A DNA stretch of 64,000 nucleotides from Reyranella sp. (lineage in GTDB: Bacteria; Pseudomonadota; Alphaproteobacteria; Reyranellales; Reyranellaceae). How positions within the stretch are numbered: the stretch's first letter is position 1; each line of letters opens with the position of its first letter. The stretch lies in NCBI RefSeq assembly GCF_004297265.1, contig NZ_SCUT01000007.1, positions 1 to 64,000 on the forward strand, written 5' to 3'. A program made the position numbers and the translations under genes. Positions 57,951 through 63,764 of this stretch are shown here, piece after piece. Under the pieces are notes generated by a model. That model was given only the letters and a program-made list of their open reading frames with translations, did not search any database and was not told the DNA's origin.

Positions 57951-58046
57951 GAGATCTCCCTTTGAGGCGCGCGGATCGTGCCGCCTCTTTCGCGCTTCGA
58001 CCAGCGTCAATTGCGCATCGGTGCTGCCGCTAGCATAAAGGCCGGC

Positions 58047-59012
58047 ATGACAATCGGTCGGCGCCAAGCCCTGACGATCCTCGCCGCAGCGTCCGCAGCT
58101 GCATCTCCCGTACGCGCTCAATCATGGCCGGCAAAGCCGCTCAGCATCGTTGTGCCCTACGCGGCGGGGAGCGCCACCGACACGCTGGCCCGCGTCATGG
58201 CGGAATACCTGGCGCCCAAGCTCGGCCAGCCGGTGATCGTCGACAACAAGGGCGGCGGCAACGGCTCGATCGCTGCCAACTACGTCGCCAAGGCGCCGCC
58301 GGACGGCTACACGCTGATGATCGCGACGGCCGCGACGCATGCCGGCAATCCCAACCTCATGAAGTCGGTGCCGTACGATTCGCTGACGGATTTCGCGCCG
58401 GCCGGCTTCTACGGCTTCATCCAGTTCGTCCTGCTGGTGCGGGCCGATGCCGGCATGGACACGCTCGCCGACTTCATCAAGCGCGCCAAGGCCAGGCCGC
58501 CGCTGACTTCCGGTGCCGGCACACCCTCGGCCCGTGTGATCACGGCGACGCTGGCGGAGCGTCTCGGCACCGACATCACCTACGTGCCCTACAAGTCCGC
58601 GCCGCAGGCGCTGGCCGACCTCCTGTCGGGCCAGATCGACATGACCTTTGCCGACGTGGCCATCGCCGTGCCGCAGGTGAAGGCGGGCAAGGTGAAGGCG
58701 CTGGTGATGGCGTCGGATTCCCGCTCGTCGCTGCTGCCCGAGGTGCCGACCTTCCAGGAAGCGGGGCTCGGCCAGTTCGCGCTCGACGCCTGGTTCGTGA
58801 TCATGGCGCCGTCGAAGACCCCGCCGGAGATCGTGGCGCGCATCGACACGGCGGTGCAGGAGATCGTGACCGATCCCGAGGTGATCAAGCGCCTGCGCGG
58901 CATCTCGTTCCAGCCGCAGCGCAAGGCGCCGGAGGATGTCCGGCCCTTCATCAAGTCCGAGATCGAGAAATGGGGCCGGCTCTCCAAAGCCGCCGGCATC
59001 GAGAAGGAATGA
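58047..59012 (+). CDS. Bug family tripartite tricarboxylate transporter receptor
   Basis: This 321-residue periplasmic binding protein has a signal peptide containing R-R-Q-A-L (M-T-I-G-R-R-Q-A-L-T-I-L, cleavage near V-R-A). Family blocks are I-V-V-P-Y-A-A-G-S-A-T-D-T-L-A-R (about 34-49) and V-D-N-K-G-G-G-N-G-S-I-A. The A-P-D-G-Y-T-L segment is A-P-P-D-G-Y-T-L here. It is followed after two bases by an SsuD-like monooxygenase, so the ligand may be a compound attacked by that enzyme. No TctA/TctB gene is nearby. Confidence 0.92.
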   Translation: MTIGRRQALTILAAASAAASPVRAQSWPAKPLSIVVPYAAGSATDTLARVMAEYLAPKLGQPVIVDNKGGGNGSIAANYVAKAPPDGYTLMIATAATHAGNPNLMKSVPYDSLTDFAPAGFYGFIQFVLLVRADAGMDTLADFIKRAKARPPLTSGAGTPSARVITATLAERLGTDITYVPYKSAPQALADLLSGQIDMTFADVAIAVPQVKAGKVKALVMASDSRSSLLPEVPTFQEAGLGQFALDAWFVIMAPSKTPPEIVARIDTAVQEIVTDPEVIKRLRGISFQPQRKAPEDVRPFIKSEIEKWGRLSKAAGIEKE

Positions 59013-59014
59013 AG

Positions 59015-60103
59015 ATGATGGAGAAGAAGCGCCTCGAATTCGGCTGGTTCCTGCCCACCGCGGGTGACACCACCGCCTATGGACTGCCGAGCGCACAGGT
59101 GCCGCCGTCGCTCGACCTGTTCGACAAGATCGTCGGCGCGGCCGAGGCGGCGGGCTTCGAGTACATGCTGGTGCCGGTCCAGACGGCCTGCTGGGAGGCC
59201 TGGATCACCAGCGCGATGATGGTGGCGCGCTCCAAGTCGATGCGCATGCTGGTGGCGGCGCGGCCGAGCTACATCAACCCCGTGTTGCTCGCGAAGATGA
59301 TCACGGCCTTCGACCAGCTCTCGGGCGGCCGCATCTGCATCAACCTGATCGCCGGCCAGAGCGAGGCCGAGAACGCCTCCGAAGGCATCAAGTGGGGCAA
59401 GGAAGAGCGCTACGAGATCATGGACGAGGAGGTCTCGATCCTGAAGGCGCTGTGGACCACGAAGGGCCCGGTGAATTTCGACGGCAAGTTCTACCAGCTG
59501 AAGGGCGCGCAGATCCGCCCCTATCCGCTGCAGCAGCCGCATCCGCGTTTCTATCTGGGCGGCGGTTCGAAGCAGGCCTGGGAGATTTCGGCGAAGCACT
59601 CCGACGTGCATCTCTTCTGGGGCGACACCTACGAGCGCATCCGCGCCAACATGGCCGAGATCAAGTCGATGGCCGCACGCCATGGGCGCGAGAAGGAGAT
59701 CGGTTTCGGCATGCGCCTGCAGGTCGTCTGCCGCGAGACCGAGAAGGAGGCCTGGGACTTCGCCCACGGGCTGGTCGAGCATGCGAGCGAGGCGCAGAAG
59801 GCCTTCGTGAAGGAACGCTTCGCGACTTCAGAAGCCAACCGCCGCGTGCGCGAGCTGGCGGCGATCGGCGAGACCATCGAGCCGCATCTGTGGACCGGCA
59901 TCACCCAGGTCCGCCCTGGCGCCGGCATCGCCATCGTCGGCGATCCCGAGCAGTGCGCCGACACGCTGCAGAAGTTCATTGACCTCGGCTGCCATTCCTT
60001 CTGCCTGTCGGGCTACTTGCACGACGAGGAGGCGGAGCGGTTCGGCAAATGGATCATGCCGATCCTGCGCGAGCGCAATCGCGAGCGCATGCTGGCGGCG
60101 TAA
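59015..60103 (+). CDS. LLM class flavin-dependent monooxygenase (SsuD-like)
   Basis: This 362-residue luciferase-like enzyme uses FMNH2 and O2. It has the SsuD pattern: F-G-W-F-L-P-T near the start, A-A-G-F-E-Y-M-L-V-P, F-D-Q-L-S-G-G-R-I-C-I-N-L-I-A-G and Y-L-G-G-G-S-K-Q-A-W. Such enzymes desulfonate alkanesulfonates or oxidise related substrates. The start (59015 or 59018) lies two bases after the Bug receptor stop, giving a receptor-enzyme pair. A flavin reductase gene is not adjacent. The LysR gene downstream may regulate it. Confidence 0.9.
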   Translation: MMEKKRLEFGWFLPTAGDTTAYGLPSAQVPPSLDLFDKIVGAAEAAGFEYMLVPVQTACWEAWITSAMMVARSKSMRMLVAARPSYINPVLLAKMITAFDQLSGGRICINLIAGQSEAENASEGIKWGKEERYEIMDEEVSILKALWTTKGPVNFDGKFYQLKGAQIRPYPLQQPHPRFYLGGGSKQAWEISAKHSDVHLFWGDTYERIRANMAEIKSMAARHGREKEIGFGMRLQVVCRETEKEAWDFAHGLVEHASEAQKAFVKERFATSEANRRVRELAAIGETIEPHLWTGITQVRPGAGIAIVGDPEQCADTLQKFIDLGCHSFCLSGYLHDEEAERFGKWIMPILRERNRERMLAA

Positions 60104-60128
60104 CTTCCGTCTGCGTAGGGTGGCGGCC

Positions 60129-61049
60129 ATGGCCCAGCCGACCCTGCCGGATTTCAGCGCCCGCCAACTCGAGGCCGTCCTCGCTGTCGGGGAATATGGC
60201 AGCTTCATCGCCGCGGCGTCGCGGCTGCGCATCTCGCAGCCGGCGCTGACCCGCACGATCAAGCGGATCGAGACGGCCTTGGGCGTGCGCCTGTTCGAGC
60301 GCAGCACGCGGCATGTGCAGATCACGCCGGCCGGTCGCGAGTTCGCGGCGGTGGCGGAGCGCATGCTGAACGACCTGCGCATCACGGTGCGCTCCATCCG
60401 CGAGGTCGCCGAGGAGCAGCGCGGAAGGCTCGCCATCGCCAGCATCATGTCGGTGGCGAGCGGGACGCTGCCGTTGCTGCTTGCGACCTACCGCGCCGAC
60501 AGGCCAGGCATCGAGATCCATGTCCAGGAAGGCGTCCATGGCAGCGTGCTCGAGGCGGTGCGCAGCGGCGCCGCGGATCTCGGCCTCACCTATGTCGACG
60601 AACTGCCCGACGCGATCTCGGGCGAAGCGCTGCAGCGCGAGACTTTCTGCCTGGTCGTGCCGCGCCGCCACCGGTTGGCCGCCCGACGCAACGTCTTGCT
60701 CGCCGACTTGCGCGACGAGCCGTTGGTGGCTCTGCCCAGCGATTCGCGGACCCGCCGCACGGTCGACGCCGCGGCTGCGGTGGCAGGCCTGACCTTGCGC
60801 CAGATCGTCATCGTCAGCCAGTTCGCCACCTTGATGGGCTGCGTCCGGGCCGGCGTCGGCCTCGCCATCGTGCCGACCGGCGCCACCGGCCTCCTCCTGG
60901 GTCGCGATCTGCGCGCCATTCCGCTGGGAGAACCGAAACTCTCGCGCCGTCTCGGCATCGTGCTCCTGAGGGAACGCGAGCCTTCCCCCGCAGCCGCCGG
61001 CTTCCTCGCCCTTGCGCGGCGGTCCTGGCCCAAGGCGGTTCGCCTTTGA
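60129..61049 (+). CDS. LysR family transcriptional regulator
   Basis: This 306-residue regulator has an N-terminal winged helix (about 9-70: F-S-A-R-Q-L-E-A-V-L-A-V then S-F-I-A-A-A-S-R-L-R-I-S-Q-P-A-L-T-R-T-I) and a C-terminal ligand-binding domain (about 95-300). It sits co-directional behind the SsuD-like gene (25 bases) rather than divergent as usual. It may regulate the upstream receptor/monooxygenase pair or the following UGSC cassette. ATG 60129 is preferred; GTG 60120 is an alternative. Confidence 0.93.
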   Translation: MAQPTLPDFSARQLEAVLAVGEYGSFIAAASRLRISQPALTRTIKRIETALGVRLFERSTRHVQITPAGREFAAVAERMLNDLRITVRSIREVAEEQRGRLAIASIMSVASGTLPLLLATYRADRPGIEIHVQEGVHGSVLEAVRSGAADLGLTYVDELPDAISGEALQRETFCLVVPRRHRLAARRNVLLADLRDEPLVALPSDSRTRRTVDAAAAVAGLTLRQIVIVSQFATLMGCVRAGVGLAIVPTGATGLLLGRDLRAIPLGEPKLSRRLGIVLLREREPSPAAAGFLALARRSWPKAVRL

Positions 61050-61162: not shown

Positions 61163-62218
61163 ATGCAGTTTGCATCCAGGTCCTATTCGGCCGACAGCAT
61201 TTCGGCGGTCCAGGAACTCTATCATTCCAACGGCTGGACCGACGGCCTGCCCATCGTGCCGCCGACGCGCGAGGCGGTTCAGGAATGCCTCGAATGGGTG
61301 ATGATGCCGCCTGACCAGCTGATCGGCATCGAGCCCGTGCGCGGTCTCGCCATCACAGCCGAGAAGCTCGCGATCAACGCCGTCATGGCGGGCTGCCTGC
61401 CGATGCACTTCCCGGTCGTCGTGACGGCCTGGACCGCCATGATGCAGGAGGAATTCCTGATGCACGGCGCGACGGCGAGCACCGGCGGCTGCGCGGTGCT
61501 GGTCATCCTGAACGGCCCGATTCGCCTGGAGATCGGCGCCAGCGGCTCGTTCAACGCGCTTGCCAACTCCGATCGCGCCACGGCGGTCATCGGACGTGCC
61601 ATCCGGCTCTGCCTGATCAACCTCCTGGACGACCGGCCGGGCGTGATCGACCGCTCGACCCTCGGCCATCCCGGCAAGTTCAGCTACTGCGTCGCGGAGG
61701 ACGAGGAAGATACGACGTGGCTGCCGCTGGCCGAGCATCGCGGCGTGCCGAAGGGCGCATCGTCGGTCACCGTGATGGCGGCGGGCGCGCCGCGCCAGCT
61801 CATGAACGAATGGACCACGAAGCCGGAGGAGATCCTCGAGACCTTCGCGGCCGAGATGCGCGCCAACATGCGCCACTACTCGATCCATCCCGGCAACTAC
61901 GCGCTGATCATTCCCAAGCAGCTGCGCGAGCATCTGCAGGCGGGCGGCTGGACCAAGGCCGACATCGCGACCTTCATCCACGAGCGCGCGCGCATCCATC
62001 GTCGCGAATGGGCCGATGTCGGCAAGGGCGCCGTAGTCCGTGATCGCGGCGACAGCGTCTACACCGCGATGGATTCGCCCGACCAGCTCCTGGTCGTGGC
62101 GGCCGGCGGCCCGGCCGGTGGCTTCGGCGCCGTCATTCCGCCCTGGCTCGGCAACAAGAGCTATGCCGTCACCCTGCCGATCGGCGTGTGCGTCGATTGC
62201 GAACCGCCCAAGAAGTAG
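61163..62218 (+). CDS. Conserved protein paired with the UGSC selenoprotein (function unknown)
   Basis: This 351-residue protein has the recurring pattern N-G-W-T-D-G-L-P-I-V-P-P-T-R (about 23-36), then E-K-L-A-I-N-A-V-M-A-G-C (about 72-83), a glycine/serine-rich T-A-S-T-G-G-C-A, N-G-P-I-R, and G-H-P-G-K-F-S-Y-C-V-A-E. I recall this as a widespread family without known function that is often found beside UGSC-family proteins. No signal peptide or membrane segment. There are several cysteines, including two near the C-terminus (C-V-D-C). It ends 11 bases before the selenoprotein start, so the two are co-transcribed and probably act together. Confidence 0.8.
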   Translation: MQFASRSYSADSISAVQELYHSNGWTDGLPIVPPTREAVQECLEWVMMPPDQLIGIEPVRGLAITAEKLAINAVMAGCLPMHFPVVVTAWTAMMQEEFLMHGATASTGGCAVLVILNGPIRLEIGASGSFNALANSDRATAVIGRAIRLCLINLLDDRPGVIDRSTLGHPGKFSYCVAEDEEDTTWLPLAEHRGVPKGASSVTVMAAGAPRQLMNEWTTKPEEILETFAAEMRANMRHYSIHPGNYALIIPKQLREHLQAGGWTKADIATFIHERARIHRREWADVGKGAVVRDRGDSVYTAMDSPDQLLVVAAGGPAGGFGAVIPPWLGNKSYAVTLPIGVCVDCEPPKK

Positions 62219-62229
62219 GAGGAAACACC

Positions 62230-62757
62230 ATGTTCGAAGTTCTCGACCCCACGCCGGGCACCGCCCCGCCGGCCGGCCGGCTCGCCCCGCGTCTCGACAC
62301 GCTGGAAGGCAAGACGGTCGGCTTCATCTCGAACGGCAAGGAAGGCACCAAGGGCTTCTTCCGGCATCTCGACCAGATCCTGCGCGAGGAGTATGGCGTC
62401 GCCAACGTGGTGAGCCGCACCAAGTCGAACTACAGCGCGCCGGCCGACCCGCACATCGTGGCGGAGATCAAGGGCTGGGATGCCGTCGTCTCCGGCTTGG
62501 GGGATTGAGGGTCCTGCTCATCGTGCAGTCTGCACGACTCAGTTACCGCTGAACGACTGGAAGTTCCTGCTTTCAGCGTGATGACGACCCGGTTTGCCAG
62601 CGCGGCGGAGATGATGAGCCGCGTGCTCGGTATGCCGGGCTATGCCTTCGCCCAGATCGGTCACCCGGTCAGCAGCGCGACCGACGACCAGCTCCGCGAC
62701 ATGGCGCGCACGGCCATCGAGCAGGGCCTGGCGATGCTGGTCCGGCCGAAGGCCTGA
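62230..62757 (+). CDS. UGSC family selenoprotein (in-frame UGA read as selenocysteine)
   Basis: Read through TGA 62506-62508 as selenocysteine, the frame gives 175 residues: ATG 62230 (GGAGG just upstream) to a real TGA at 62755-62757. The motif G-L-G-D-U-G-S-C-S-S-C (Sec93, then C96, C99) is the U-G-S-C signature; homologues can have Cys there. After the UGA, L-G-M-P-G-Y-A-F-A and H-P-V-S-S-A-T-D are typical family blocks. Codons 62581-62754 end in G or C in 54 of 58 cases, so the frame is truly coding. Probably a thiol/selenol redox enzyme; its reaction is unknown. An ordinary gene call stops at 62508. Confidence 0.88.
62509..62547 (+). promoter_or_regulatory. Bacterial SECIS element
   Basis: Directly after the UGA, UCGUGCA (62521-62527) pairs perfectly with UGCACGA (62531-62537) around a GUC loop. 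Lower pairs are CUG/CAG (62514-62516 with 62540-62542) and GGU/ACC (62510-62512 with 62545-62547). The loop begins with G and lies 19 bases after the UGA, as expected for bacterial SECIS hairpins that recruit SelB with Sec-tRNA. Codon choice inside and just behind this element (62509-62580) drops to 13 of 24 ending in G or C, consistent with RNA structure constraint. Confidence 0.85.
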
Positions 62758-62773
62758 ACTCCCCAAAAGGCAA

Positions 62774-62802
62774 CCTCGGGCAGCATTTTGCGTTGCCCGA
62801 GG
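62774..62802 (+). terminator. Hairpin after the selenoprotein gene
   Basis: CCTCGGGCA (62774-62782) pairs perfectly with TGCCCGAGG (62794-62802) around an 11-base loop containing TTTT. It starts 17 bases after the stop at 62757. There is no T-run behind the stem, so termination strength is uncertain. Its position supports 62757, not 62508, as the gene's end. Confidence 0.6.
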
Positions 62803-63067: not shown

Positions 63068-63412
63068 TCAGGGGATCTCCATCCGGACCGCGATGGCGGC
63101 GCTGGCGATCACCGCCGGATCGTTGTTTTCCGGATCGGCGATGTCGAGGCCGCCCTTCACCACCTTCACGGTCACGATGCCGTGGGGCAGGGAGGCCTTG
63201 ACCTTCTCCGCGTCGACTTTGTCGGGTTGCTGCACGCCGATCGTGACGTCGACGAACATGCCGGTCCTGGTGTTGATCTTCAGCGCCCGGATCATGGCGA
63301 GTGAGGAATGGTGCAGGGCGTCCTGCACCGCGCGCAGGGCGGCCTTGGTGTAGTCGCCGCCGTGCAGGTCGTTGCCGGTGCCGAGTTCGAGGATTACGCG
63401 CTTGGCAGTCAT
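63068..63412 (-). CDS. Lin0512 family protein (copy 1)
   Basis: This 114-residue protein has the Lin0512 family features K-R-V-I-L-E-L-G-T-G-N-D-L-H-G-G-D-Y-T-K-A-A (about 4-25) and a central I-G-V-Q-Q-P-D-K-V-D segment. The fold is a small alpha/beta domain of unknown function. It is the second of two tandem paralogues, 13 bases behind copy 2 in transcription order. The two share the L-G/M-G-x-D-x-x-G-G-D-Y-T-K-A-A start but diverge elsewhere, which suggests a heteromer or different ligands. Confidence 0.87.
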   Translation of the reverse strand: MTAKRVILELGTGNDLHGGDYTKAALRAVQDALHHSSLAMIRALKINTRTGMFVDVTIGVQQPDKVDAEKVKASLPHGIVTVKVVKGGLDIADPENNDPAVIASAAIAVRMEIP

Positions 63413-63425
63413 GGTCTTGGTCCTC

Positions 63426-63764
63426 TTACAGGTCCAGGCGGACGATGGCGGCCGCCTGCGCGATCACCGTCTTGTCCGTGCCGGCCTCGTTCTCGATCTC
63501 GAGGCCGCCCTCGAACACCTTCACCGTGCCGGTGCCGTGCGGCAGCACCGCCAGCACCTGCGCCGTGTCGACCTGATCGGGCTTGGGCACGCCGATCAGG
63601 ACCTCGACGACCATGTCGTCGCTCGATTTGCCGAGTGCCGTGGCGATGGTGAGCGAGTTGTGCCACAGCGCGTCCCGCAGGGCGCGGACCGCGGCCTTGG
63701 TGTAGTCGCCGCCCCTGATATCGGTGCCCATGCCGATCTCGAGGGCCACCTTCTTCAACGCCAT
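63426..63764 (-). CDS. Lin0512 family protein (copy 2)
   Basis: This 112-residue paralogue of the adjacent gene has K-K-V-A-L-E-I-G-M-G-T-D-I-R-G-G-D-Y-T-K-A-A at its start and I-G-V-P-K-P-D-Q-V-D in the middle. The conserved pair of glycines and the D-Y-T-K-A-A motif suggest a ligand-binding loop. It precedes copy 1 and follows the Bug receptor gene by 15 bases, so all three are likely one operon and the receptor's cargo is a candidate ligand. Confidence 0.87.
   Translation of the reverse strand: MALKKVALEIGMGTDIRGGDYTKAAVRALRDALWHNSLTIATALGKSSDDMVVEVLIGVPKPDQVDTAQVLAVLPHGTGTVKVFEGGLEIENEAGTDKTVIAQAAAIVRLDL

Follow-up and report, generated by a model that had tools for sequence, protein, structure and literature searches.

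A very probable UGSC-family selenoprotein of Reyranella, its near-constant upstream companion and a remote similarity to the selenocysteine region of GrdB

The UGSC family of selenoproteins was in the literature by 2008 at the latest, when it appeared as 'UGSC-containing protein' in an ocean survey, non-marine samples included, whose passages on the family describe it as abundant and count 255 selenocysteine (Sec) sequences (PMC2398784). In its passage on the subject, a 2026 review places UGSC, as NF041046, among the selenoproteins whose functions are largely uncharacterised (PMC13188914). GrdB is protein B of glycine/sarcosine/betaine reductase and, together with PrdB, belongs to PF07355. Glycine reductase is known from anaerobes; Reyranella and the haloarchaea are mostly aerobes. 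According to the relevant passages on monofluoroacetate dehalorespiration, FarB/FarE of Synergistota are described as GrdB/GrdE homologues, not as UGSC, and this pair is proposed to cleave the C-F bond by Sec attack, a proposal showing how far such chemistry might reach (PMC10838667). Our literature search on Reyranella or Reyranellaceae together with selenium found nothing relevant.

We analyzed a window of 64,000 nucleotides from the genome of Reyranella sp. (contig NZ_SCUT01000007.1, positions 1 to 64,000), in which an initial annotation had proposed a UGSC selenoprotein interrupted by an in-frame UGA. The gene and its immediate surroundings comprise the following features:

62230..62757, + strand: predicted UGSC-family selenoprotein gene, 175 codons with the UGA read as Sec, stop at 62755-62757
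62506..62508, + strand: in-frame UGA, predicted Sec93, the opening residue of U-G-S-C (from the sequence and 74 aligned homologues)
62217..62222, + strand: AGGAGG, ribosome-binding-site-like, read directly; overlaps the stop codon of the upstream gene
62521..62537, + strand: bacterial-SECIS-like hairpin with stem 62522-62526 / 62532-62536 (from folding and comparison)
62527-62531, + strand: hairpin loop AGUCU with the conserved GU at 62528-62529
61163..62218, + strand: unclassified gene of 351 amino acids, here called the partner, with an 11-nt gap to the UGSC start

As initially described, the frame opened by ATG 62230 is interrupted solely by TGA 62506-62508 (codon 93), reads D-U-G-S-C-S-S-C across it and ends at TGA 62755-62757 after 175 residues; AGGAGG precedes the ATG at a distance of 7 nt. 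The reported excess of codons ending in G or C (54 of 58) is exact for 62581-62754; over the whole part after the UGA, 67/82 codons end in G or C, compared with 51/81 and 43/81 in the other two frames. Moreover, the dN/dS of this part was 0.11-0.30 in 16 of 16 pairwise comparisons (40 to 73 differences each) with relatives chosen by hand from the collected loci, which shows that the downstream stretch is under selection as a protein.

The proposed family was recovered with Pfam PF24696 at 157.3 bits (cut-off 25), covering residues 3-170 and profile positions 1-170 of 172. With Sec entered as Cys, the NCBIfam equivalog model NF041046 (UGSC_fam) gave 115.1 bits, below its curated cut-off of 125; because Pfam gives the same family, we read this shortfall as a score under NCBI's naming threshold. 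The warning that routine annotation loses such genes does not always apply, since NF041046 exists, but a rule built on the cut-off of 125 could miss this protein at its present score. On an Acidovorax plasmid, a UGSC gene (L194:7983-8498) is annotated merely as a short hypothetical protein, a truncation of the kind feared. Homologues aligned across the UGA, carrying Sec or, in four loci (L035, L193, L195 and L196), Cys. Across the 74 aligned homologues, a set that leaves out four short UGSC pieces and has Sec entered as Cys, columns 93-96 (U-G-S-C, including Cys96) were invariant, as were K37, K65, D103, F122, H145 and P146, and TGA was present in 107/108 distinct 51-mers. Judged by its sequence, the gene adds a member to an already known family, with which it shares the full-length match, U-G-S-C, a hairpin directly after the UGA and a length of ~170 residues; the sub-cut-off NF041046 score aside, it shows no difference in kind.

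The stem-loop that the initial annotation placed 19 bases after the UGA is present; this distance holds for the loop G, whereas the stem itself starts 13 bases after the UGA. Conservation does not extend to the outer U-A pair (62521/62537). Folding z-scores of -1.72 (81 nt), -0.47 (52 nt) and -2.55 (35 nt) are modest evidence by themselves, and an Rfam search of 62200-62800, up to E 1, gave no match, so the case for the hairpin rests on conservation across relatives. The five-pair stem was complete in 103/107 distinct TGA-type sequences, and the loop (NGUNU) had GU at its second and third places in all 107. Synonymous codon redraws (2000 times) gave an expectation of 18.1 for the complete stem (maximum 31) and 19.6 for the loop GU (maximum 33). 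When the 3' arm was slid by 1-3 bases, no sequence paired fully. The four incompletely paired stems had a C-U mismatch (three sequences) or an A-C mismatch (one sequence), and at three of the five pairs the bases varied with pairing preserved (G-C/A-U/G-U/C-G; U-A/A-U/G-U; C-G/G-C/U-G). Some of these paired changes alter amino acids too, as in the paralogue on contig C34, where C-S-L-H becomes W-S-F-H. The four Cys-type homologues had the loop GU in 0/4. Stem pairing alone fails as a discriminator between Sec and Cys types, given that the Cys types keep 4 or 5 of the 5 pairs; the loop alone separates them.

The Sec machinery that the gene was said to imply is present in the 6.02-Mb genome, each component over its cut-off, with a cluster of selA, selB and tRNA-Sec on contig C8 and with selD on C14:

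C8:148425: selA, over the curated cut-off
C8:150519: selB, over the curated cut-off
C8:152834: tRNA-Sec, 71.5 bits with the Rfam model (cut-off 47), ARAGORN in agreement
C14:113039: selD, over the curated cut-off

A second Rfam tRNA-Sec match over the cut-off scored 51.6 bits; the ARAGORN confirmation concerns the 71.5-bit match. The same searches in 14 control genomes returned matches to tRNA-Sec, selB and selD in 14/14 and to selA in 4/14, mostly sub-cut-off, which shows that the cut-offs matter for these calls. Four UGSC genes were identified in the Reyranella genome, with one in-frame TGA apiece, each at the U of U-G-S-C. UGSC matches were found in 75/75 genomes searched of the taxonomic family (Reyranellaceae), with one TGA in every UGSC match listed from them, and in 5/398 sampled genomes of the phylum, with TGA in 8/9 copies and Cys in one (L035); the sequences counted are related and do not represent independent events. 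Both 398-genome phylum samples, for UGSC and for the partner, used E 1e-6 and scored the best few candidates per genome. On these computational signs of Sec decoding, together with the hairpin, the gene very probably encodes a real selenium-containing protein of a known, functionally unexplained family. As far as sequence can show, the initial annotation is supported on this point; of the outcomes it had named as contrary, the absence of selB or selC and the absence of homologues across the UGA were looked for, and neither occurred.

We then considered the partner gene, on which, as on the GrdB similarity described below, the initial annotation is silent. The partner had no Pfam or NCBIfam match, no Pfam family matched more than 3 of 73 partner homologues (best E 0.01, chance-like), and its profile found no solved structure by sequence up to E 10. 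The protein is 100% identical to one from an uncultured Reyranella MAG (L040). Its AlphaFold2 (AF2) model reached a pLDDT of 93.5, and fold matches were weak, with a Foldseek TM by query length of ≤0.26 among the 50 matches listed and a best VIA Z of 6.1. Neither this VIA match nor the best Foldseek match, a fumarate hydratase (1.2e-4, TM 0.24), was used as evidence.

Five partner copies are present in the genome, at least one adjoining each of the four UGSC genes. Among 80 partner loci, which are the best of 582 confirmed and hence close to the query, UGSC with TGA was found in 78, and the remaining two are cut off by a contig edge that falls at the partner or within it. UGSC was located downstream on the same strand, with ≤300 nt between domain ends, in 70 of these best 80 loci, further downstream in 5, upstream in 1 and on the opposite strand in 2. 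The phylum sample of 398 genomes had the partner in exactly the five UGSC-bearing genomes. Furthermore, when 35 loci from other genomes were fetched by UGSC, 34 contained a full partner and the 35th (L133, entered by hand as partner-positive) a piece cut by the contig edge. The partner also adjoined UGSC on 4/4 plasmids examined out of five UGSC-bearing ones (H22 was left out), with Cys-type UGSC in the haloarchaea Natrinema and Halalkalicoccus and the actinomycete Embleya and Sec-type in Acidovorax. Going by the names of the sequence records, the two genes are found together in groups that include Pseudomonadota, Acidimicrobiia, Chloroflexi, a Bacillus and haloarchaea. From this genomic distribution, the upstream gene is a near-constant companion of UGSC in what appears to be an operon-like pairing. 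A passage of the 2008 survey reports UGSC fused to a domain named 'Unknown_1' (PMC2398784), which could be this partner. Other arrangements were also observed: at C34:174351-176742 of this genome, two different copies of the partner follow UGSC in tandem, and in Halalkalicoccus one partner lies on either side of UGSC.

The wider neighborhood contains the following genes, assigned by Pfam:

57978-59012, + strand: TctC-type receptor, upstream of the partner
59979-61049, + strand: LysR regulator, upstream of the partner
63068-63412 and 63426-63764, - strand: tandem Lin0512-family genes (PF09585), just downstream of UGSC

An open frame ending at 60103, between the receptor and the regulator, resembles a luciferase-type monooxygenase by eye, and the Lin0512 cluster recurs in 4/80 partner loci (best 80 of 582). 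A common substrate was not found from the neighboring genes, which vary across the 80 partner loci (best 80 of 582). The commonest neighbor clusters in these loci were the partner (65), TctC-like (12), a shadow frame (12), CoA-transferase (10) and SDR (10); the CoA-transferase and SDR clusters were checked by Pfam and TctC by eye. Acyl-CoA dehydrogenases, TauD, nitronate monooxygenase and amidohydrolase were among the further neighbors. Such variety fits the catabolism of varied organic acids and names no substrate.

We utilized AF2 to predict the structure of UGSC. The model (pLDDT 92.8) has strands and helices alternating in a Rossmann-like arrangement, places Sec93 after strand 85-91 and before helix 94-109, and appears to differ from the thioredoxin-like fold suggested in a passage of the 2008 survey (PMC2398784). 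The structural matches listed include lumazine synthase, PurE, receiver and TIR domains, with no thioredoxin among them. The top VIA match (Z 10.8) is a chain of the methyl-coenzyme M reductase activation complex; because other common folds follow at Z 8-10, we name no fold relative. Two weak matches of the UGSC profile to solved structures, the better being 5dn6_G (0.0096 over residues 24-77), were taken as chance.

A link to thioredoxin was found on the side of the partner. The partners of L035 and L115 have a fused N-terminal CxxC domain (CETC or CPTC) that is weakly thioredoxin-like. At the locus on contig C5 of this genome (L028), a thioredoxin-like CHTC domain immediately precedes the partner and shares its frame, with a stop codon that is not TGA standing between the two where L035 has the fusion. 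In Pfam, the thioredoxin-like domain reaches 4.7e-4 at best, below the curated cut-off, and the best solved-structure match of the C5-locus domain is a thioredoxin (3.8e-4). Thioredoxin also serves the glycine reductase cycle, as a passage of the 2026 review states (PMC13188914).

Profile comparison revealed a remote similarity between UGSC and the Sec region of GrdB. An hhalign comparison of the 74 UGSC proteins with five GrdB-type proteins, including GrdF of Peptoclostridium acidaminophilum and GrdH of Enterococcus gilvus, gave E 8.2e-7 and a probability of 91.6 across 83 columns, the Sec residues of both families falling in one column; this is one pairwise profile comparison, and the similarity is confined to the C-terminal part of GrdB. 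Seven GrdB and PrdB proteins together gave E 9.1e-7, 31 GrdB/PrdB-like proteins (GrdB L152 included, fragment L153 dropped) E 2.9e-4 (probability 40), PrdB alone E 6.3e-4 (probability 28), and the single GrdB L152 E 1.1e-4 (probability 56, 28 columns). Reversed-alignment controls gave E 0.38 in the 31-protein run and 0.086 with the five-protein set. The best of 39 decoy alignments (40 clusters less the UGSC stub itself, some of them shadow frames) reached E 0.01 at probability 4; these decoys were run alongside the 31-protein and L152 comparisons, not with the five-protein set. True GrdB matched the GrdB/PrdB-like set at 7.6e-42 (the sets share one protein), which makes UGSC far more distant, a distant relative at most. 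PF07355 (GRDB) was absent from the Pfam families that a scan up to E 1 listed for the 74 UGSC proteins, a scan in which HMMER filters drop most matches above ~0.1.

The two systems share further traits. Like UGSC, GrdB and PrdB have the Sec of a UxxC at the same profile place, similar flanks and a later HP-x-G-like motif, and in grdG-grdF and prdA-prdB, as in partner-UGSC, the Sec subunit is encoded downstream of its partner. UGSC is, however, much shorter and without the N-terminal part of GrdB, and unlike GrdB/PrdB it is also found on haloarchaeal plasmids, with Cys. When the partner was compared with grdG, a part of an Enterococcus gilvus component B subunit and two partial PrdA proteins (GrdG, GrdI and PrdA types), hhalign probabilities were ≤0.3, so that the substrate-activating subunit of those reductases is without a counterpart by sequence. 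We conclude that UGSC resembles the Sec region of the GrdB system in its profile, and we do not assign it as a GrdB member. Within the passages covered by our search, no paper was found that connects UGSC with either GrdB or the partner.

A second candidate selenoprotein was noted in the same genome, with a PF07355 score of 33.1 bits and a TGA in V-P-V-U-P-A-C-T-R:

L150:1180-1731 and beyond (C36:8511 onward), + strand: PrdB/GrdB-like frame (PF07355)

PF07355 (GrdB/PrdB-like) matches occurred in 23/31 hand-picked partner-locus genomes (E 1e-5), compared with 2/398 phylum genomes (E 1e-6). Of the GrdB/PrdB-like frames collected, loci L152-L181 among them, 29/31 run into a TGA.

With slightly better than even confidence, we favor a model in which UGSC and the partner constitute a two-subunit, GrdB-like selenolate reductase, Sec being read at UGA 62506-62508 via the hairpin. 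SelB and tRNA-Sec would read through this UGA, directed by the hairpin that follows it. UGSC would be co-expressed with the upstream partner, and both would assemble into one two-subunit enzyme; complex formation, the type of reaction and the roles of Cys96 and thioredoxin are what we infer here. UGSC would supply the Rossmann-like domain, with Sec93 between β-strand and helix, as kin to the Sec region of GrdB, and the partner would bind and position a small organic substrate. The Sec93 selenolate would then attack a polarised carbon-heteroatom bond, Cys96 would resolve the selenium as Se-S, and a thioredoxin-like protein would restore Sec93. Several observations weigh against this model: the partner is without similarity to GrdG/GrdI or PrdA and without a convincing fold match, PF07355 was not listed for UGSC, the profile similarity is partial and distant, the thioredoxin-like domain is weak, the neighbors indicate no single substrate, and Reyranella and the haloarchaea live mostly as aerobes, unlike the anaerobes from which glycine reductase is known.

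Other readings of the locus were weighed against this model. The 2008 survey, in its passage on the family, suggested a thioredoxin-type function (PMC2398784): UGSC would be a thiol/selenol-disulfide oxidoreductase or a peroxidase whose UxxC shuttles electrons, with the partner as client or adaptor. The UxxC motif and the two loci in which the partner is fused to a thioredoxin-like domain agree with such a role, which we nevertheless regard as unlikely, at perhaps half the weight of the reductase or less: the AF2 model is Rossmann-like with no thioredoxin among the structural matches listed, the profile similarity is to GrdB, and the invariant K37, K65, D103, F122, H145 and P146 would be more in keeping with a substrate site than with a bare redox center. 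Alternatively, UGSC might employ Sec as the nucleophile of an isomerase, a lyase or a racemase, with no net redox change and with the substrate held by the partner. Sec placed after a strand of a Rossmann-like model would suit this chemistry, as would the fumarate hydratases and cyclic amide hydrolases among the partner's Foldseek matches. We consider it improbable, as the fold matches of the partner are weak (TM ≤0.26 among the 50 listed; best Z 6.1), the thioredoxin link speaks for redox cycling, and an isomerase would have no need of the invariant resolving cysteine, Cys96.

By the letter of the standard code, which is all that favors this reading, the UGA would be a true stop, leaving a 92-residue protein followed by decaying sequence or a sequencing error. 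This is extremely improbable in view of four paralogues each with a single in-frame TGA at the same U, the occurrence of UGSC in all 75 family genomes with TGA in every match listed, the low dN/dS (0.11-0.30) after the UGA, the hairpin fully paired in 103/107 distinct sequences and the Sec machinery in the genome.

Returning to the favored two-subunit reductase, the partner and the GrdB resemblance are points worth following; neither was found in print in the passages searched, with the caveat of 'Unknown_1' (PMC2398784). The partner gene offers something to purify UGSC with, the GrdB similarity provides a testable type of chemistry for a family of no known function, and the Cys-type pair on haloarchaeal plasmids would permit tests without Sec machinery. 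More tentatively, and somewhat short of an even chance, the pair may represent a third branch of the Grd/Prd reductases that has so far gone unrecognised, composed of a stand-alone GrdB-type selenolate domain and a new substrate-binding subunit. If this is true, aerobic bacteria, and haloarchaea with Cys, would reductively cleave C-N, C-S or C-halogen bonds, with small organic acids as targets and thioredoxin as the reductant.
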